Shown one piece after another: positions 22,642 to 33,057 of a stretch of DNA of 64,000 bases. The first letter of the stretch is position 1. Each line of letters starts with the position of its first letter. A model generated the notes under the pieces. The model was not told the origin of the DNA, searched no databases, and saw only the letters and a list, made by a program, of their open reading frames with translations. The DNA lies in NCBI GenBank assembly GCA_009839485.1, contig VXPQ01000014.1, forward strand, positions 1-64,000, written 5' to 3'. Made by a program: the position numbers and the translations under genes. The stretch is from Bacteroidetes bacterium SB0662_bin_6 (lineage in GTDB: Bacteria; Bacteroidota; Rhodothermia; Rhodothermales; VXPQ01).

Positions 22642-22976
22642 ACCGGTTTTTTCATGCGGGCGAAGTGTTTATGCACCGCATGAATATGCTTCCATTTCGC
22701 GGCAAATACAAACATAGGGATACTCTGATCAAAACCACCCCTCTCAGCCTCTGAGCTTTGCGGACTTAATCAGAGTATCCCTTGGCTTCTGTGGCGCGGG
22801 CTGCTCAATGCACAGGCCGGATTCCGGGGTGTATTCTTGACCGTCAGGTATCCGGTGCGTATTCTTATGCGCGCACGTCGCGCGCAAGCGGCACCCGGTT
22901 CATACGACAGGACAGGCAACGCGCTGTCCGGTCTTTACGAATCCCTTCTCTTTTGCAAAATCCCGGTTTTGGCGCA
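22642..22976. other. Divergent intergenic region carrying a 65-bp inverted-repeat element
   Basis: The gap separates the divergent GH3 and PQQ-dehydrogenase genes and must hold both promoters. It contains the inverted-repeat element at 22717-22781. The open frame running through 22782-22976 upstream of the dehydrogenase lacks a signal and is read as non-coding. I cannot place confident -35/-10 elements. Confidence 0.5.
22717..22781. mobile_element. MITE-like 65-bp element with 16-bp terminal inverted repeats
   Basis: GGGATACTCTGATCAA (22717-22732) is mirrored by TTAATCAGAGTATCCC (22766-22781) with one mismatch in 16. The inside has a smaller stem (CTCAG/CTGAG near 22743-22755). No target-site duplication is evident. 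Single ends or diverged copies occur at 85, 20609, 45311, 59116 and 59416. It is best described as a MITE- or REP-like intergenic element; a parent transposase is not in the window. Confidence 0.6.
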
Positions 22977-25673
22977 ATGCGTAACAGAACAACCATATCG
23001 GCGCTGGCATGGATCGCTTTTCTCGCAGGATGCGCCGATCCCGGAAATCGCGCGGACTCGTCCGAGCCGCCGGCTCCCGAACGATTCACGAAAGTCGTGT
23101 TCGACGAAGTGCTCTACGAGCCCATGGAACTGGAACTGCTCGATGACGGCCGCATCCTTTTCGTGCAGCGGCGCGGCGAAGTGAATATCCATGATCCGCA
23201 GACGGGCCTGACCGAGACGATCGCCGAACTGGATGTGTTCATAGAGTTTGAAGAAGGGCTGCTCGGCGTAGCCCTCGATCCCGATTACGCAGACAATCAT
23301 TGGGTCTATTTTACGTATTCCGCTCCGGACGAGGCTGTGATACGGGTGGCCCGTTTCGTGCTTGAAGATTCCCGACTCGACATGGAGTCCGAGCGGGTCC
23401 TGCTGGAGATTCCCGTTCAGCGCGACGAGTGCTGTCACGTAGGCGGTTCGCTGGAATTCGGTCCCGAAGGCAATCTGTTCGTGTCGATAGGGGACAACAC
23501 CAATCCGTTTGCCTCGGACGGATTTAATCCCATTGACGAACGCGAGGGCCGCAAGGCTTGGGACGCACAGGGATCTGCCGGCAACACCATGGACCTGCGC
23601 GGGAAGATATTGCGGATTACTCCGGAAGACGACGGCGCCTACCGCATTCCGGAAGACAATCTCTTTGCGGACGATCCAACGAGGGGGCGGCCCGAGATTT
23701 ACGTAATGGGAAACCGAAATCCCTTCCGGATCGATATCGACGCCCGGACAGGGTATCTGTACTGGGGCGAGGTGGGGCCTGATGCGGGCGATTCATCCGC
23801 CACAAGGGGGCCCATGGGGCATGACGAAGTGAATCAGGCACGGCAGGCGGGTAACTTCGGCTGGCCGCATTTCATCGGAAATAACAAGGCGTACCACGAT
23901 TACGATTTCGAGGCGGAGGTGGCAGGCGAGCCTTTCGACCCGGCCGCTCCCGTAAACGATTCCCCGAATAACACGGGAGCGGAGCTTCTTCCGCCGGCGC
24001 AACCGGCCTTTATCTGGTATCCTTACGAGGCATCCGAGGAATTTCCGGTCGCAGGGGACGGCGGACGCAACGCCATGGCAGGTCCCGTCTATTATTATGA
24101 CGATTATGCCGGTTCCGATCGCAAATTTCCGCGCTATTACGACGGGAAACTGTTTATCTACGACTGGATGCGTAACTGGATCAATGTCGTCACGATGAAT
24201 GAGGACGGAGACTATGTGGACATGGAGCGGTTCATGCCGACGACCGAGTTCAGTCGCCCCATGGATATGCTCTTCGGCCCCGATGGGGCGCTCTACATGC
24301 TCGAATACGGCCAGACCTGGTACGGGCATAATCCGGACGCCCGGTTGTTCCGCATCGAGTATGCGGTCCATAACCGCGGGCCCATTGCGCGCATTTCGGC
24401 GGATCGTCCTGTCGGCGCGGCTCCCCTTACCGTGACGCTTTCCGCCGCCGATTCTTTCGATCCGGACGGCGATCCTTTCACCTGGTCCTGGCGCCGCGAG
24501 GGAGACCAGGATGACATATCCGGCGAGGAGGCCGTTTACTCGTTTGAGGAGCCGGGGACCTACCCGGTAACGCTCACCGTCACCGATAGCGAGGGTTTAA
24601 CGGGTACGGAAATCATCGACATTCTCGTCGGCAACGACATACCGGAGGTGCGCCTCGAACTTTCCGGCAACCACACGTTTTTCTGGGATGGCAGGGCCAT
24701 CGAGTATAACGTGGTCGTGACCGACCTGGAAGATGGTGAGATTGCTGCCGAGGAGGTTGCCTTTACCATCGATTACCTGGCGCAGGGCAGCGATCTGACG
24801 GTTCAGGCTCAGGGCCATCAGGCGGCGCTGGAACAGGCTTCAGGGCTTATCGGACAGGCCCTTATAGAACGGCATAACTGCGGGGCGTGCCATCTCCGAA
24901 CGGATGAGTCCATAGGTCCGTCCTTTGCGGCCATCGCCCAAAAGTACCCGGACAACGATGCTTCGCGCGAATATCTCACGGATAAAATCCTTAATGGCGG
25001 CATGGGTGTCTGGGGGGATCGGGCGATGGCGCCGCAGCCGCAGGTTGCTGCCGAAGAAGCGAACCGCATGGCGGACTTCATCCTTGGTTTGGAGAGCGCA
25101 GCTGTGCGGGAGGCGGAGCTCCCGTTGCAGGGCACGTATGTCACCGACCGGCACGATGCGGACGAGGAAGAAGGGCGCTATTTCCTGGCGGCTTCGTACA
25201 CCGATCACGGGGCGTCGGGTATGCCCAGCCTCACCGGTCGGAGTGTCGTAACCCTGCGGCATGCGAGGTTGCAGGCGGAAGACTATGACGAGGGCGAAGA
25301 GGTCATGGCGTTTCCCATGCCGGAAGAGGCGTTCGGGGAAGACGCCACAGGAAATGTCCTGATAGGGAATGACGGGGGGTATTTCGTTTTCCGGGATATC
25401 GATCTTACCGGTATCCGGTCGCTCACTGCACAGATCGGAACCGTAGCCGAGTTGACCACGGGAGGGCGGCTGGACCTGCGCGCTGGCGGCCTGGACGGAG
25501 AGGTCCTCGGCACGTTCGAAGTGCCGATACCGAACGAAACCAGTCTCCAGACCTATGAAGTAGTGCTTGACGAGGCCAGCGGTATGACCGACCTGTATTT
25601 TGTGTTTGCGGCGGACGAACCGGGCAGGCCATTTCCGGTCTGCTTCATCGACTGGATTGTGGCGGAACAGTAG
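22977..25673 (+). CDS. PQQ-type sugar dehydrogenase fused to PKD, cytochrome c and CBM6-like domains
   Basis: ATG 22977 (MRNRTTISALAWIAFLAGC) gives a lipoprotein. The 898-residue product has four parts. A glucose/sorbosone dehydrogenase propeller spans about residues 37-460 (EEGLLGVALDPDY, HVGGSLEFGPEGNLFVSIGD, GDGGRNAMAGPVYY). A PKD domain follows at about 471-548 (SFDPDGDPFTWSW). A class I cytochrome c has haem motif CGACH near 635. A C-terminal carbohydrate-binding-like sandwich starts at about 714. The fusion would let sugar oxidation at PQQ pass electrons directly to haem at the cell surface. Cofactor and substrate are inferred from the family. Confidence 0.9.
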   Translation: MRNRTTISALAWIAFLAGCADPGNRADSSEPPAPERFTKVVFDEVLYEPMELELLDDGRILFVQRRGEVNIHDPQTGLTETIAELDVFIEFEEGLLGVALDPDYADNHWVYFTYSAPDEAVIRVARFVLEDSRLDMESERVLLEIPVQRDECCHVGGSLEFGPEGNLFVSIGDNTNPFASDGFNPIDEREGRKAWDAQGSAGNTMDLRGKILRITPEDDGAYRIPEDNLFADDPTRGRPEIYVMGNRNPFRIDIDARTGYLYWGEVGPDAGDSSATRGPMGHDEVNQARQAGNFGWPHFIGNNKAYHDYDFEAEVAGEPFDPAAPVNDSPNNTGAELLPPAQPAFIWYPYEASEEFPVAGDGGRNAMAGPVYYYDDYAGSDRKFPRYYDGKLFIYDWMRNWINVVTMNEDGDYVDMERFMPTTEFSRPMDMLFGPDGALYMLEYGQTWYGHNPDARLFRIEYAVHNRGPIARISADRPVGAAPLTVTLSAADSFDPDGDPFTWSWRREGDQDDISGEEAVYSFEEPGTYPVTLTVTDSEGLTGTEIIDILVGNDIPEVRLELSGNHTFFWDGRAIEYNVVVTDLEDGEIAAEEVAFTIDYLAQGSDLTVQAQGHQAALEQASGLIGQALIERHNCGACHLRTDESIGPSFAAIAQKYPDNDASREYLTDKILNGGMGVWGDRAMAPQPQVAAEEANRMADFILGLESAAVREAELPLQGTYVTDRHDADEEEGRYFLAASYTDHGASGMPSLTGRSVVTLRHARLQAEDYDEGEEVMAFPMPEEAFGEDATGNVLIGNDGGYFVFRDIDLTGIRSLTAQIGTVAELTTGGRLDLRAGGLDGEVLGTFEVPIPNETSLQTYEVVLDEASGMTDLYFVFAADEPGRPFPVCFIDWIVAEQ

Positions 25674-25694: not shown

Positions 25695-27103
25695 TCAGAA
25701 CGATATCCGGGCTCCCAGGGCCAAACGACCGCCCGGATGGACGCCGATAACCGGCGTAATGGAGACGGCGCTCTGATCGGGAATATCCACACGCTTCCAT
25801 CTTTCTGTCCGGTTTGCTACGCCGACGAGTGCGCCCAATAAGGTGCCTCCTCCGCTTCCAAGCAGAAATATCCCTGTCGCAGCTATCGCCTCGCCGACGC
25901 AAGATTCGTTATTGCACTCGATGTTGCTTGCTCCACTAATCCCCACAATCATACCGGCGCCTAAACCGATCAAAGTACCTTTTAGAACATGCGAGCGGAC
26001 TCCCAGACTTCTATGCAACCGCGCCATATCGGTATACGCTATACTTTGTTCTTTCGAGTCTGTAAGGATGGTCAGGGAATCGGCATCATATCCTTTCACT
26101 TGCCCGATGAGTTTCTCTCCGTTTTTTGTCGTGACCCGCATGCGGTTTTCCAGGGTCACCTGACTGCCTGGGCGATCGTCGGTATCCGGCATAACGAACG
26201 CAGCATCCTGATCGGGAATATCCAGACGCTTCCATCGCTCGCGCCGGATTGCTCTGCCTGAAATCATGCCACCCAAGCCGAGTGCCGGCGTGAAAAAACC
26301 TATCCCCAATATTGCCGCCCAGCCGTCCTGCAGGATGGCTGCGACGGCTATGCTACCCCCCACACCAACTGCAAGACCCGTCATGGCGGCATCTCTGGAA
26401 TACGAGCGAATTCCCAGGCTTCTTTGCAGCCGCGCCATGTCGGTATACGCTATGCTTTGTTCTGTAAAGCCCGTAAGGAGAGTCAGGGAATCGGCATCGT
26501 ATTCCTTCAAGTGCCCGATGAGTTTCTCCCCGTTTTCAGTTGTTATCCGCACGCGGTTTTCAAAGGCCAAAGGGCCGGGCGGTTGGACGCCGATACCCGG
26601 CGTAACGGATACACTGTCTTGAGCGGGGATCTCGGGTGGCTGGATGCCGATTTCCGGCATAATCAATGGGGTGTTCTGACCGGGAATATCCACACGTTCC
26701 CATCTCTCTCGCCTGATTCCCGCGTTGACCAGACCACCCATCCCCCCAAAAGACCTACTCCAGCCACCGTCGCAAATTGGCTGGAGGCTCCCGTGATGTC
26801 TCCTGCCGCGACAAGTCCCACAACCATACCAGCGCCCAAGCCAACCATGGCCCTGTTCTTATAACGCGCTCGCCCTCCCAAACTCCTTTGCAGCCGCACC
26901 ATATCGATATACGCTATGCTTAGTTCTATCGAATTTGTAAGGATTGTCAAAGAATCGGCATTATAGCTCTTCAGTTGCCCGATGAATTTTCCTCCATCTT
27001 CCGTCTTTATCCGCATGCGGTCTCCGATGAATTGCGCATGTGCGGGATGTGCAAGGAAAAAAATCACTCCAAGGGTCAGGCTTAGCAATGCGTTTCTTTG
27101 CAT
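25695..27103 (-). pseudogene. Three-module Sm-like/glycine-hairpin protein, frameshifted at a G-tract
   Basis: Two overlapping frames reconstitute one gene. The first runs from ATG 27103 (MQRNALLSLTLGVIFF, signal peptide ending AHAQ) through module 1. The second carries the rest to the terminal ALGARISF. The break is at a run of six G on the minus strand (plus-strand C6 at 26742-26747). Adding one G restores the frame, and 1409+1 bases equals exactly 470 codons. Each module has a strand-rich Sm-like part (RITTENGEKLIGHLK, DSLT, DMARLQRSLG), a glycine-rich hydrophobic hairpin and a linker RRERWKRLDIPDQ. The last module has a C-x4-C pair (ECNNESC). It is a pseudogene, a phase-variable gene or a sequencing error. 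Confidence 0.75.
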
Positions 27104-27225
27104 CGTAGCGTTCCGGTTGGAAAGGGTTCGTAAAGGCCGGAAAATTCTAAGAGTGCACCGTCGCGTCGGAGTATGTCGTCCTGGTGAGTGGGTTTGTGGG
27201 GGTGTTTTACGAACTTGTGAATTTT
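27104..27225 (-). promoter_or_regulatory. Duplicated leader of the modular gene family
   Basis: Bases 27104-27205, upstream of the frameshifted gene, closely match 30038-30145, upstream of the two-module gene. Shared words include GCGTTCCGGTTGG, CGTCCTGGT and GTGGGTTTGTGGGGGTGTTT. A shorter version (28996-29035) precedes the four-module gene. Conservation of non-coding DNA implies recent duplication of gene plus promoter, so the paralogs are probably controlled alike. Confidence 0.55.
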
Positions 27226-28995
27226 TCAAAACGATATCCGAGCCCCCAGGGCTAAACGACCACCCGGATGGACGCCGATAGTCGGTATAGCAGACGCGGT
27301 GCCCTGGCCGGGAATATCCAGACGTTCCCATTTCTCTGTCCTGATTATTGCGCCGACAATCAGGCCCAATAAGGCGCCTCCCCCGCTTCCAATCACAATC
27401 GAAAACCATGTCGCAATAGCGGCGCCGAGACAGGATTCGTCACGACATTCAATGTTTAACGCTGTACGAATCCCCCAAAACGAGCCGGCGCCTAAACCGA
27501 TGACAAGGCCTTCTATCGGATACCTACGGACCCCCAGGCTCCGTTGCAGCCGCATCATGTCGGCGTACGCTATGCTTAGTTCTGCGGCGTCTGTAAGGAT
27601 TGTCAGGGAATCGGCATCGTATCTGTTCATCCGCCCGGTGATTTCTCCTCCGTGCTGCATCGTTATCCGCATGCGGTCTTCCAGAGTCCAAAGTCCGGGC
27701 GGATGGAGGTCACTATTCGGCATAAGAGATGCAGCGCCCTGATCGGGAATATCCGGCATGAAAGACGCGGTGTCCTGATCGGCAATAGCCGGCATAACAA
27801 ACGCAGTGCCCTGATCGGGAATATCCAAACGCTTCCATCTCTCCCGACTGATTTCCCTGCCGACCATGGCGCCGGTTAGACCACCCAGTCCCCCAAAACC
27901 AACCGCCAGTCCCACGCCTGAGGTGCCTATGCCATACAACAAACCAACTGTAAAACCCATCATGGCGCCGTCTCTATAATACGAGCGGCTTCCTAAACTT
28001 CTTTGTAGCCGCGCCATATCGGCATGCGCTATGTTTTGTTCGGTGGAGTCTGTGAAAATTGTCAAAGAATAGGCATTATAGCCCTTCAGCTGCCCGATGA
28101 ATTTATCTCCGCTTTTAGTTGTTATTCGCATGCGTTCGTCTAGGGTCAAAAGACCGGCCGGGTGGATGCCAATAATCGGCATAACAGGTCCAGCGTCCTG
28201 ATCGGGGATATCCAAACGCTTCCATCCTTCCCGCCTGATTTTCCTACCGACCATGGCGCCGGTTAGACCGCCCAGAACTCCTAAGCCAAGTGCCAGCCTC
28301 CCATCTGAGACGACCACGCCAGACAATAAACCCGCTGAAAACCCCATCATAGCGCCTCCTCTATGATGCCGGCGGATCCCCAAGCTCCTTTGTAGCCGCG
28401 CCATGTCGGCATGCGCTACGTTTTGTTCGGTGGAATCTGTAACGATTGTCAGGGAATGGCTTTCGTATCCTTTCAGTTGCCCGACAAACTCCTCTCCGTT
28501 TTTAGTCGTTATCCGCATGCGGTTTTCCAGGGCCGAAAGACCGTGCGTGCGAACGCCAATGCCCGGCATTAGAAATGCGGCGCCCTGGTTTGGAATATCC
28601 AAAGGCATCCATCTCTCCCGTCTGATCATCGCGCCGACAAGCATGCCGGTTAGACCGCCCAATCCTCCCCAAAAGCCTGTCAGTATCCCCTGATCTCTGA
28701 TCGCGCCGCCGTAATGAACACCCATACCTAAACCTATTATGGCGCCATCTCTGTAATGTGCCCGGACGCCCAAACTCCTTTGCAGCCGCACCATATCGAC
28801 ATACGCTATACTTAGTTCTGTCGAGTTTGTAAGGATTGTCAGGGAATCGGCATTATAGCCCTTCAGTTGCCCGATGAATTTCTCTCCATCTTCCGTCGTT
28901 ATCCGCATGCGGTCTCCAGTGAACTGCGCATGCGCGGGATGTGCAAGGAAAAGTATCACCCCGAGAATCAGGGTTAGCAATGCTTTTCTTGTCAT
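27226..28995 (-). CDS. Four-module Sm-like/glycine-hairpin repeat protein
   Basis: ATG 28995 (MTRKALLTLILGVILFLAHPAHAQ) gives a clean signal peptide. The 589-residue product has four tandem modules of about 140 residues. Each starts RMRITT, continues with a GEKFIGQLKGY-type hairpin and SLTI-T-DSTEQ-IAHADMARLQRSLG, then a glycine-rich hydrophobic hairpin (GVLGGLTGAMVG), then RRERW and LDIPDQ. The first half resembles Sm/SH3-like barrels; the second resembles glycine-zipper membrane segments. Module 3 ends with a 13-residue mini-repeat (DIPDQGTAFVMP-like) in three copies. The C-terminus is ALGARISF. No named family is recognised. It is an envelope protein by signal and composition. Confidence 0.8.
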   Translation of the reverse strand: MTRKALLTLILGVILFLAHPAHAQFTGDRMRITTEDGEKFIGQLKGYNADSLTILTNSTELSIAYVDMVRLQRSLGVRAHYRDGAIIGLGMGVHYGGAIRDQGILTGFWGGLGGLTGMLVGAMIRRERWMPLDIPNQGAAFLMPGIGVRTHGLSALENRMRITTKNGEEFVGQLKGYESHSLTIVTDSTEQNVAHADMARLQRSLGIRRHHRGGAMMGFSAGLLSGVVVSDGRLALGLGVLGGLTGAMVGRKIRREGWKRLDIPDQDAGPVMPIIGIHPAGLLTLDERMRITTKSGDKFIGQLKGYNAYSLTIFTDSTEQNIAHADMARLQRSLGSRSYYRDGAMMGFTVGLLYGIGTSGVGLAVGFGGLGGLTGAMVGREISRERWKRLDIPDQGTAFVMPAIADQDTASFMPDIPDQGAASLMPNSDLHPPGLWTLEDRMRITMQHGGEITGRMNRYDADSLTILTDAAELSIAYADMMRLQRSLGVRRYPIEGLVIGLGAGSFWGIRTALNIECRDESCLGAAIATWFSIVIGSGGGALLGLIVGAIIRTEKWERLDIPGQGTASAIPTIGVHPGGRLALGARISF

Positions 28996-29074
28996 CGTAG
29001 CGTTCCGGTTGGGAAGGGTTCGCAAAAGCAGAGCAGTTCTATACGTGCCCTGGCATGTCGGAGTATTTTGTGTT

Positions 29075-30037
29075 TCAGAACGATATCCGGGCTCCCAGAG
29101 CCAAACGACCGTTCGGCTGGACGCCGATAACCGGCGTAACAGACGCGGCGCTCTGACCGGGAATCTCCAGAAGTTCCCATTTTTCTGTTCTGATTGCTAT
29201 ACCGACGATCAGGCCAAGCAGGCCGCTCCCCGTGGTCCAAGCACCTATCTCATACAGATCCGCCAGAGCGTCCCCCAAGGCAGCTCCCCAAGAGTGATAT
29301 TCTTCGGTATTCTCTTTGTCGCCGGCTACGGAGACAATGCCCACAAGTGCGCCAGCGGCTAAACCGACCACGATACCTTCTAAAAAATACGAGTGGACGC
29401 CCAGGCTTCTTTGCAGCCGCGCCATATCGGTATACGCTATGCTTATTTCTGTCGAGTCTGTAAAGATTGTTAGGGAATAAGCATCGTACACCTTCATTAG
29501 CCCCATGAGATTCTCTCCGTGTTCGGTCGTTATCCGCATGCGGTTTGCAAAGGCCAAACGACTGGTCGAATGGACGCCAATAACCGGCATAATGGATGTA
29601 GCGTCCTGATCGGGAATATCCAAAGGTTTCCATCTCTCGCGTCTGATCGTCGCGCCGGCGATCAGGCCGGTTAGACCGCCCACTCCTCCCCCAAGACTTG
29701 TTGCAATCAATGCCGCAAAGGGGTCGCCCTGGGCTACTGCAGCAGATATGCTTAAAAACGCAGCAACGCCTAAACCCATCTTGGCGCCCTCTCTATAATA
29801 CGAGCGGACCCCCAGGCTCCTTTGCAGCCGCACCATATCGGCATATGCTATGCTTTGTTCTGTCGAGTTTGTAAAGATTGTAAGGGAATGGCTATCGTAC
29901 CCCTTCATTCGCCCAATGAGCTCCTCCCCGTTTTCGGTCGTGATCCGCATGCGGTCTCCGATGAACTGCGCATGCGCGGGATGTGCAAGGAAAAGTATCA
30001 CCCCGAGAATCAGGGTTAGCAATGCTTTTCTTGTCAT
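29075..30037 (-). CDS. Two-module Sm-like/glycine-hairpin repeat protein
   Basis: ATG 30037 gives the same signal peptide as the neighbouring four-module protein. The 320-residue product contains two modules. Module 1 has RMRITTENGEELIGRMK and GGGVGGLTGLIAGATIRRERW. Module 2 has RMRITTEHGENLMGLMK, a glycine/alanine-rich hydrophobic stretch with an extra acidic insert (GDKENTEEYHSW) and the shared end RLALGARISF. The terminal Phe recalls outer-membrane proteins recognised by BamA. It is the promoter-proximal member of three tandem copies, 79 bases from the next gene. Function is unknown. Confidence 0.8.
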   Translation of the reverse strand: MTRKALLTLILGVILFLAHPAHAQFIGDRMRITTENGEELIGRMKGYDSHSLTIFTNSTEQSIAYADMVRLQRSLGVRSYYREGAKMGLGVAAFLSISAAVAQGDPFAALIATSLGGGVGGLTGLIAGATIRRERWKPLDIPDQDATSIMPVIGVHSTSRLAFANRMRITTEHGENLMGLMKVYDAYSLTIFTDSTEISIAYTDMARLQRSLGVHSYFLEGIVVGLAAGALVGIVSVAGDKENTEEYHSWGAALGDALADLYEIGAWTTGSGLLGLIVGIAIRTEKWELLEIPGQSAASVTPVIGVQPNGRLALGARISF

Positions 30038-30412
30038 CGTAGCGTTCCGGTTGGGAAGGGTTCGCAAAGACCGGATAATTCTATACGTGCGCCGTCTCGT
30101 CGGGGTATGTCGTCCTGGTAAGTGGGTTTGTGGGGGTGTTTATCGCGTTCGCTCCGTTGTGGGTTGACCCAGCCCTCACCATTAATTATATACAGATAGT
30201 TGTACTCATTCCGTGATTATTTAGAGTTAATTAGTAAACTTTTTGTGACTAATGGGGAATCACGTTCCAAACAACGTACACGTCATGTTGGACAGAGACC
30301 GACTACGAAGCCCTTTGGCAGCTTTTGTATATAATCCTCCAATGATTATTGTCAACATCATTATTTAATATTGAAATTGACATGATCCAATGTGTGTGGT
30401 ATATTAGCCTCT
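30038..30412. other. AT-rich divergent spacer with duplicated leader
   Basis: The first part (30038-30145) is the conserved leader shared with 27104-27205. The rest (about 30170-30410) is strongly AT-rich, with runs such as ATTAATTATATACAG and TTATTTAATATTG. It separates the divergent modular-protein gene and the DUF4143 ATPase gene and presumably holds both promoters. I see no gene in it. Confidence 0.5.
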
Positions 30413-31615
30413 ATGATTGCCAGACACCTCACTCCCGCACTCAGGCAGGCTGCCGAAAGCTGGCCCGTCGTAACCGTTACCGGGCCTCGACAGTCGGGCA
30501 AGACGACCCTTGTTCGGGCTGTTTTTCCGGGGCATCTCTATGTCTCGCTCGAAGCGCCCGATGTGCGCGAACGCGCGCTGTCGGACCCGAGAGGCTTTCT
30601 GGCGCAGGGGGATCGTATGATTCTCGACGAGATTCAGCGTGTCCCCGACCTGCTATCCTATATACAGGTACTCGTTGACGACGACGACCGTCCCGGTCGT
30701 TTCATTGTCACCGGATCCCAAAACATCCTGCTCATGGAGTCGGTGTCGCAAACGCTGGCGGGCCGAACCGCCTTGTTGCGTTTGTATCCTTTTTCGCTTG
30801 CCGAGATACGAGGGCTGCCTCCTGTGGATCCATTCACGCTGGACCGGGATGCGCCAACAGGTCGCCCCGCCGGATCGTTGCCCGCCGACGGCCTTTGGGA
30901 AACGCTCGCCGCCGGTTTCTATCCGCCGGTGCATGATCGGGGTATTGCCGCGAACGAATGGTTCGGGGACTATTTTCGAACCTATGTCGAACGCGACTTG
31001 CGCGAAGTCCTGCGCGTTGCGGACCTGCGGGCTTTTGAGACGTTCATGAGACTCGCAGCAGCCCGGACCGCCTCCGAGTTGAATCTGAACAGTCTGGCTG
31101 GCGATGCGGGTGTTACCCAAACCACTGCCCGGCGTTGGCTCACGGCTCTTGAAATCGGGTATCTCGCGGCTACGCTTCCGCCTCATCATATCAACTATCG
31201 TAAGCGTTTGCGCAAGCGCCCCCGGTTACATTTTCTGGACACAGGCCTCATTTGTTACCTGCTCGGTATTCGCGACGGCGCTACACTGGAGCGGCACCCG
31301 TTGCGCGGGGCCATTTTCGAATCGTTCGTGGTGGCGGAACTGATAAAGGCGTTCGCCGCTATGCGCCGGGACGCTCCGCTTTTCTTCTGGCGAGACGCCA
31401 CGGGCCACGAGATCGATGTTCTGATCGATGCCGGGGACCGGCTGATCCCGATGGAGATTAAATCCGGGCAAACGGTTGCTCACGACGCCATGCGCACGCT
31501 GGACTGGTGGACATCTATTCCCGCAAACCCTAACCGCGGCGGCGTGCTGGTGCACGGCGGGGGCGAGCGCTTCGCCTTAAGGGATTATCAGGTGCTTCCC
31601 TGGTTTTTGAGGTGA
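30413..31615 (+). CDS. DUF4143 AAA ATPase
   Basis: ATG 30413 (MIARHLTPALRQAAESW) places the P-loop at the usual distance from the N-terminus. The 400-residue product has Walker A GPRQSGKTTL, Walker B MILDEIQRVP, TGSQN as sensor 1, and PFSLAEIRGL. The C-terminal DUF4143 part contains GLICYLLGI and a PD-(D/E)xK-like core (HEIDVLID then MEIKSGQ). This family is widespread in Bacteroidota and often mobile. Its role is unclear, with toxin-antitoxin, defence or DNA-handling roles proposed. It stands alone between the modular genes and the sorted propeller gene. Confidence 0.9.
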   Translation: MIARHLTPALRQAAESWPVVTVTGPRQSGKTTLVRAVFPGHLYVSLEAPDVRERALSDPRGFLAQGDRMILDEIQRVPDLLSYIQVLVDDDDRPGRFIVTGSQNILLMESVSQTLAGRTALLRLYPFSLAEIRGLPPVDPFTLDRDAPTGRPAGSLPADGLWETLAAGFYPPVHDRGIAANEWFGDYFRTYVERDLREVLRVADLRAFETFMRLAAARTASELNLNSLAGDAGVTQTTARRWLTALEIGYLAATLPPHHINYRKRLRKRPRLHFLDTGLICYLLGIRDGATLERHPLRGAIFESFVVAELIKAFAAMRRDAPLFFWRDATGHEIDVLIDAGDRLIPMEIKSGQTVAHDAMRTLDWWTSIPANPNRGGVLVHGGGERFALRDYQVLPWFLR

Positions 31616-31731
31616 TGGGGATTGAATTTCCGGGTGCGCTGCTATTTATTACCCGCATGACCTGCATCCTGAAACCTGGCATCGGGATCAAGGAATATCA
31701 GCGGTTTCGGTTACAATGGCGGGGACGAATC

Positions 31732-33057
31732 ATGATCTACTTGCTTGCCAAGGCAAAAAGGGCTCTATGTTCAAAGTATGTCGCCCTTACTTGCTCAACC
31801 TGTGCGGTCCTGTTCTTCTCTGGAGATTTTCTTTCGACCCCGCTCCTTGGGCAGAACATTGGTACGGGCCCAGCCTTTTTGTCTCCTCGCGGCCTTGCGG
31901 TAGAAGACGATGGGAGTTTGTTGATGGGAGTTACTTCCCGGTCGGGCCCCGGGTCGATATTTCGGATTGATCCGGTCACTGGCGACCGTACGATCATGTC
32001 GGATGACACTACTGGCAGCGGTCCGGGTTTGTCGGAGCCAATAGGGCTTGCAGTTGAGGCCGATGGTAGTCTGGTGATGACAGATATTTACCATTACGGG
32101 GTAGTTCGTGTGGATCCGGTTACTGGCGATCAGATGGTTGTATCGAATTACCGAACCGGAAGCGGTCCATTCTTTGATTGGCCTCGTGATCTTGCGATAG
32201 AGGCCGATGGCAGTCTGGTAATAATGGATACTGATGCGCTGGTACGGGTCCACCCGGTCACTGGCGACCGCATGATCATGTCGGATGACACTACTGGCAG
32301 CGGTCCGGTTCTTTCGTTGGCTCGTGGACTTGCGGTAGAGGCTGATGGCAGTCTGGTGGTGGCATATATGTCTGAACGGGGCCCACGTCACAGGGTACTG
32401 ATGCGGGTCGATCCAGTCAGCGGTGATCGCATGATCATATCGGATGATACTACCGGGAGCGGCCCAAATCTTTTGCATGTCATAGACCTTGTGGTAGAGT
32501 CCAACGGCAGCATAGTGGCGCTGGATGGGCGCCGAAAAGCAGTGATGCGGATTGATCCGGTCAGTGGTGATCGCATGATCGTATCGGATGATACCACCGG
32601 AAGCGGCCCAATTTTTTCGCTGCCCAGTGATCTTGCGATAGAGACCGATGGCAATTTTGTGGTGCCGTATTATATAGGTGCGTATGAAGAAGGTATGGTG
32701 GCGCTGGTCCGGATTGACCCGGTCAGTGGCGACCGAACGGTCTTCTCATTCAGCTCGGTCGTAACCGGTATTGAAGACGAGGCAGAAGTGCCGGAGCGCT
32801 TCTCGTTAACGGGCGCCTATCCTAATCCATTCCGGGCCACGACGCGCATCGGATATGAATTACAGCGCCCCTCCTCTATCGAATTGGTGGTCTACGATGC
32901 GGCAGGTCGTGAAGTGGAGGTGCTGGTTTCGTCGATGCAGCCGGCGGGCTTGTACGAGGCGAGCTTCGAGGCGGAGGGATTGCCGAACGGGGTGTATTTC
33001 TACCGCCTGTCCGCAGGATATTCCACCCAAACCGGCCAGGTGGTGCTTTTTCGGTGA
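31732..33057 (+). CDS. T9SS-sorted repeat propeller protein
   Basis: ATG 31732 (MIYLLAKAKRALCSKY) is taken as start; earlier in-frame ATGs overlap the spacer. The 441-residue product has a signal region and then about six repeats of about 50 residues with the pattern IDPVTGDRTIMSDDTTGSGP followed by LAVEADGSLVV, a propeller blade. Residues about 355-441 form a Por/type IX sorting domain (YPNPFRATTRIGYEL, VVYDAAGREVEVL, LPNGVYFYRL). The protein is expected to pass the outer membrane through the type IX system and stay on the cell surface. Ligand unknown. Confidence 0.88.
   Translation: MIYLLAKAKRALCSKYVALTCSTCAVLFFSGDFLSTPLLGQNIGTGPAFLSPRGLAVEDDGSLLMGVTSRSGPGSIFRIDPVTGDRTIMSDDTTGSGPGLSEPIGLAVEADGSLVMTDIYHYGVVRVDPVTGDQMVVSNYRTGSGPFFDWPRDLAIEADGSLVIMDTDALVRVHPVTGDRMIMSDDTTGSGPVLSLARGLAVEADGSLVVAYMSERGPRHRVLMRVDPVSGDRMIISDDTTGSGPNLLHVIDLVVESNGSIVALDGRRKAVMRIDPVSGDRMIVSDDTTGSGPIFSLPSDLAIETDGNFVVPYYIGAYEEGMVALVRIDPVSGDRTVFSFSSVVTGIEDEAEVPERFSLTGAYPNPFRATTRIGYELQRPSSIELVVYDAAGREVEVLVSSMQPAGLYEASFEAEGLPNGVYFYRLSAGYSTQTGQVVLFR

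Follow-up and report, generated by a model that had tools for sequence, protein, structure and literature searches.

Three adjacent genes on the minus strand (A, B and C) occupy positions 25695-30037 of the window, the 64,000-nucleotide stretch of contig VXPQ01000014.1 of Bacteroidetes bacterium SB0662_bin_6 that was analysed. ORF calls and splitting of the translations into repeat units gave two, four and three copies, respectively, of a module of ~130-157 residues (Table 1). The complete modules within the window share 42-69% pairwise identity and the gene copies match one another in tblastn searches at E 1e-29 to 1e-70, which excludes chance resemblance. Module B2 is closest to B3 (69%) and is likely the most recent internal duplicate. 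All three genes encode a cleavable-type signal peptide ending AHPAHA before a Q, and all end in ALGARISF. These points agree with a preliminary description of the locus. It had also counted three genes, of which A and B are intact; a one-base frame break inside module C1, which it missed, makes gene C read as two ORFs. Apart from this break, which lies in a homopolymer run, both fragments are open. The G003 orthologues are intact at the corresponding site and one base longer, and the break may be a real mutation or a draft-genome error. No further family copies were detected elsewhere in the source draft genome by tblastn.

Table 1. Features of the module gene array and its surroundings (window positions).
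Feature	Position	Strand	Basis or remark
Gene A, 320 aa, two modules	29075..30037	-	ORF and module split
Signal peptide of gene A, MTRKALLTLILGVILFLAHPAHA before Q	29969..30037	-	read from sequence
Module A1	29543..29953	-	module split, identity comparison
Module A2, terminal, ends ALGARISF	29078..29542	-	module split, identity comparison
Gene B, 589 aa, four modules	27226..28995	-	ORF and module split
Module B1	28522..28911	-	module split, identity comparison
Module B2, closest relative B3 (69%)	28135..28521	-	identity comparison and tree
Module B3	27676..28134	-	identity comparison and tree
Module B4, terminal, hairpin-loop Cys pair, module used for AlphaFold	27229..27675	-	hydropathy, AlphaFold, Foldseek
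Gene C, whole, three modules	25695..27103	-	ORF and module split
N-terminal ORF of gene C: encodes the signal peptide and the bulk of module C1, leaving frame at the break	26663..27103	-	ORF
C-terminal ORF of gene C: last part of module C1, followed by C2 and C3	25695..26741	-	ORF
Homopolymer run TTTTGGGGGG, site of the gene C frame break	26742..26751	-	sequence; G003 comparison
Module C2	26145..26555	-	module split, identity comparison
Module C3, terminal	25698..26144	-	module split, identity comparison
Leader of gene A, ~110 nt	30038..30147	-	sequence comparison
Leader of gene C	27104..27213	-	sequence comparison
ACCGCATGCGGATAA copy, module start	28899..28913	-	up to 2 mismatches; junction sequence between relatives
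Other ACCGCATGCGGATAA copies (start positions)	26132, 26543, 27007, 27663, 28122, 28509, 29530, 29941		motif search
Glucose/sorbosone dehydrogenase-cytochrome c gene	22782-25673		flanks array
DUF4143/AAA_14 ATPase gene	30392-31615	+	flanks array
NHL-repeat protein, repeated SGDRMIVSDDTTGSGP units, type IX secretion sorting tail (PF18962)	31612-33057	+	

The genes also resemble one another upstream of and across their start codons. The leaders of A and C (~110 nt) are 86% identical, and the signal-peptide DNA of A and B is 98% identical. The leader common to the paralogues ends CAACCGGAACGCTACG before the ATG, and that of the G005 module gene is nearly identical despite a different locus. Such a conserved leader may carry a common regulatory signal.

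As in the window, the module genes of G001-G004 lie next to the dehydrogenase and gamma-glutamyltransferase genes; the G005 gene lies on a short contig with other neighbours. The flanking DUF4143/AAA_14 ATPase matches the PADLOC candidate defence family PDC-S01 (E 2e-109), and a similar ATPase gene sits between two module genes in G001 and G002. Among the window neighbours, the adjoining genes revealed no functional tie to the module proteins, and no immunity-like or exporter genes were recognised next to the array.

Whole proteins match the LSM profile PF01423 at 53.6 bits (B), 33.6 bits (C part) and 27.9 bits (A), exceeding its gathering cut-off of 23.4 bits because the scores of the repeats add up; single modules, the search proposed in the preliminary description, reach at best 22.7 bits, just below it. 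The Hfq profile PF17209 was not reached (19.7 and 15.2 bits vs a cut-off of 27), and profile matches to solved structures were to Sm proteins (best E 0.004). We modelled module B4 with AlphaFold on a 37-sequence alignment; a model from 20 modules of the genus was poor (pLDDT 58.7), and the barrel was resolved only with the 37-row alignment. The B4 model has a pLDDT of 81, with ~95 for the Sm part and ~52 for the poorly modelled C-terminal tail. Its strands at residues 5-10, 15-23, 27-31, 36-40 and 44-55 form a five-stranded Sm barrel, its helices at 57-77 and 86-114 form the glycine hairpin, and a strand at 116-123 (KWERLDIP) follows that holds a near-invariant Trp. All fifty Foldseek matches listed from the PDB are Hfq, the tightest with an rmsd of 1.0-1.3 A over 43-47 residues; their E-values are weak (best 0.011) because the barrel alone is common to the module and Hfq. 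The top viral Foldseek match was set aside (rmsd 17 A). The hairpin comprises 15-26% Gly and shows hydropathy peaks and two predicted helices.

In combination, the model and profiles predict that the module consists of an Sm/Hfq-type barrel, then a helical hairpin rich in glycine, and lastly one more strand. The Sm/SH3-like strand unit and glycine-rich hairpin described earlier are both recovered by this prediction. The segment RRERW-LDIPDQ had been taken for a linker; it is a predicted strand directly after the hairpin and probably belongs to the fold. Profile searches of Pfam, NCBIfam and PHROGs returned no family that covers the module, in line with the earlier statement that the pattern has no named family.

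Sm folds are chiefly familiar as RNA-binding rings of the cytoplasm or nucleus, and in Hfq a Tyr-Lys-His motif contacts RNA. At this place the module reads Tyr/His-(Ala/Thr/Val/Ile/Asp)-Asp, as judged by eye against textbook Hfq. With Sm/LSm proteins (PF01423) and Hfq the window proteins share the five-stranded barrel, the whole-protein LSM match and the top structural matches, whereas they differ in being exported and tandem, in having a membrane hairpin and extra strand after the barrel, and in lacking the Lys-His pair. SlyB and the glycine zipper 2TM families (PF05433, PF13488) resemble them in export, in a two-helix, glycine-rich predicted membrane hairpin and in the lipoprotein-type starts of distant relatives; unlike these, the window modules are repeated, place an Sm barrel ahead of the hairpin and have no lipid anchor. 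The window proteins have AHA-Q signal peptides and lack a lipid-anchored N terminus, and the lipoprotein look is limited to distant relatives. Glycine-zipper profiles match weakly: gene B scores 11 bits against Gly-zipper_Omp PF13488 (cut-off 25), and the window proteins have no match above cut-off to Rick_17kDa_Anti PF05433 or SlyB. When relatives were checked against PF13488 and PF05433, one distant relative reached 25.3 bits. The Leptospira families LB_137 (NF047503) and LA_0442/LA_0875 N-terminal domain (NF047433) show weak similarity in the Sm region (LB_137 E 7e-6), but the match covers ~40 residues, scores far below the curated cut-off and leaves the hairpin unmatched. Single-module exported Sm-hairpin proteins of the class and phylum (for example L039, L064 and L094) are built alike, from a signal peptide, a barrel, a glycine hairpin whose loop often contains Cys, and the Trp strand, but have one module per gene. 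In alignments and the tree, the window modules have the same order of parts as this single-module family.

We identified the family in all six genus genomes searched. Each of G004 and G005 has a single one-module gene, whereas G001 and G002 have two genes of two modules, and G003 two genes of three. Of two scans of named genomes, the first gave no match and the second found matches in four 'Rhodothermales bacterium' MAGs (OX638293.1, OX638295.1, JAJDWX010000037.1 and JAJECT010000037.1). Outside the genus, up to 27 further genomes of the class, out of 240, have single-module genes, and weaker single-module matches occur in the rest of the phylum; the weakest include false matches, so both the class and phylum counts are upper bounds. 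Four weak phylum or class matches (L073, L081, L087 and L104) were set aside because they are another kind of glycine-rich protein, one that lacks the barrel. Single-module genes alone were found outside the genus, with no tandem-module gene among them. Seven distant relatives resemble lipoproteins with the order of parts unchanged, and the profile of these lipoprotein-like relatives aligns across barrel and hairpin (98.4% probability, E 5e-15).

In a tree that includes 16 single-module proteins from outside the genus, all modules of the genus group together as one clade (support 98/95), which places the multiplication of modules inside the genus; the tandem genes arose there from a single-module ancestor. 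The array is a genus-specific tandem variant of a widespread, unnamed single-module envelope family. The pattern reported earlier for this locus is therefore special in its tandem multiplication, whereas the module itself also occurs in single-module versions through the class and phylum. Two relatives have unusual forms. One (L030 1730-2158, G029) is shortened, with the barrel present and almost no hairpin, and runs directly into a GVQIIF end, perhaps by hairpin deletion. At L099 1396-2382 (G106), outside the genus, two single-module genes stand in tandem, the second incomplete at the sequence end; the pair is a possible intermediate toward fused modules.

Plasmid collections, phage collections and viral contigs contained no relative, and PHROGs and PADLOC gave no match for the module proteins. 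A reading as phage or defence genes was set aside, as none of these sources gave a sign of it. Literature searches for Sm-like combined with glycine zipper or with signal peptide, together with outer membrane, found no paper in the library searched. An association with a host, such as a sponge, was considered and did not emerge from the analysis.

Module number differs between species (1; 2+2; 3+3; 2+4+3). Compared with G003 gene a, the single-module gene of G004 lacks 855 nt in frame, which are precisely modules 1 and 2. The alignment of the two genes spans the leader, signal peptide and third module, the last being 95% identical, and the join lies inside a 15-bp sequence, ACCGCATGCGGATAA, found where each of the joined modules begins. 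Within two mismatches, this sequence occurs at 9 of the 9 module starts in the window (9 matches vs 0.22 expected). Because an exact two-module difference joins inside the repeated 15-mer, the claim that recombination between module starts alters module number is well supported, in agreement with the expansion and contraction suggested in the preliminary description. The simplest reading is that entire modules are gained or lost at ACCGCATGCGGATAA, in either direction. Modules largely hold their position in the gene, since labels of first, middle and last change 5 times on the tree vs 12.3 times when shuffled. In G003 (L023 10254-11335), the 3′ ends of the gamma-glutamyltransferase and dehydrogenase genes are repeated as fragments between the module genes, the footprint of a segmental duplication.

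Among pairs of related modules, dN/dS is 0-0.34 in the Sm part and 0.27-1.6 in the hairpin, exceeding 1 in three hairpin pairs; these values derive from short stretches and leave out the last pairs, beyond an incomplete module. Values above 1 could have recombination as their source. A cautious interpretation is that purifying selection constrains the barrel, and the hairpin far less.

Sm domains oligomerise laterally via strand pairing, which makes tandem Sm-hairpin chains plausible as prefabricated arcs of a ring. Under stress, the outer-membrane lipoprotein SlyB assembles into rings that surround membrane proteins (PMC13067283). By analogy, we lean toward a SlyB-like scaffold inserted in the outer membrane, with module number setting subunit valence, and give this reading somewhat less than an even chance. 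Once the signal peptide is cleaved, the Sm barrels would remain periplasmic, with the glycine-zipper hairpins entering the outer membrane from that side. The hairpins would then pack side by side while the Sm domains join laterally into arcs or rings, and the scaffold would work like SlyB, ringing membrane proteins. With two to four modules fused, the size or stoichiometry of the assembly would be set by the chain itself, and changes in copy number would tune it. Charge is positive on the hairpin flanks next to the Sm barrel (mean +2.0, +1.0) and negative in the loop (-1.5), and the loops often carry Cys pairs; an outer-membrane hairpin would account for both.

Hairpins in the inner membrane, with periplasm-facing Sm domains serving as envelope-stress sensors or chaperones, seem unlikely. 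The signal peptide and the two hydrophobic helices per module permit any membrane reachable from the periplasm, but because the signal peptide exports the barrel, the charges of such a hairpin would run opposite to the positive-inside rule and its Cys pair would face the reducing cytoplasm; the lipoprotein-type relatives also point to the outer membrane. It is more doubtful still that these are variable surface proteins in which module number, frame breaks and fast hairpins yield variants altering phage or host recognition. Variation in module number among species, the three hairpin pairs above 1 (up to 1.6) and the position of the gene C break in a homopolymer run fit this idea. Yet the loop between the helices has just ~4-24 residues, most of the fast-evolving stretch is membrane helix, in which relaxed constraint accounts for the rate, the break occurs in one genome only and may be a sequencing error, and many lineages carry single-module versions as ordinary lone genes. 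The frame break, together with the duplication of the G003 locus along with neighbour fragments, might instead point to an expansion of repeats without function, the duplicated modules forming a neutral array. We consider this improbable, given open frames kept over 1-4 modules in all module genes but C, the low dN/dS of the Sm part and the clustering of modules by position.

Two further readings take one half of the module as their guide. Export, glycine-zipper helices and adjacent paralogues would suit a secreted bacteriocin of the CdzC/CdzD type, and glycine-zipper surface bacteriocins are already known (PMC5380434). The Sec-type signal peptide and the Sm domain, the occurrence of the single-module form mostly as a lone gene through the class, and the lack of recognised immunity-like or exporter genes beside the array make this very improbable. 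The fold and LSM profile could equally suggest an exported RNA-binding protein of the Sm/Hfq type, but the protein leaves the cytoplasm and the RNA-contact residues are lost (Tyr/His-x-Asp for Tyr-Lys-His), so that we give this idea hardly any weight.

Returning to the outer-membrane scaffold, a wider and more speculative form of it, which we hold to be doubtful as a whole, is that the family represents an unnamed, widespread envelope class in which an exported Sm/Hfq barrel and a glycine-zipper hairpin build outer-membrane rings. In this genus the subunits would be fused, and ring composition would be encoded by, and altered via, module recombination. The Sm fold is here exported and tied to predicted membrane hairpins, in an architecture that is unnamed in curated libraries and recurs across the class and beyond. 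The natural series of one-, two-, three- and four-module proteins offers a handle on the size, stoichiometry and function of the assemblies that they may form, and the locus provides a clean case in which whole protein modules appear to have been gained or lost by recombination.
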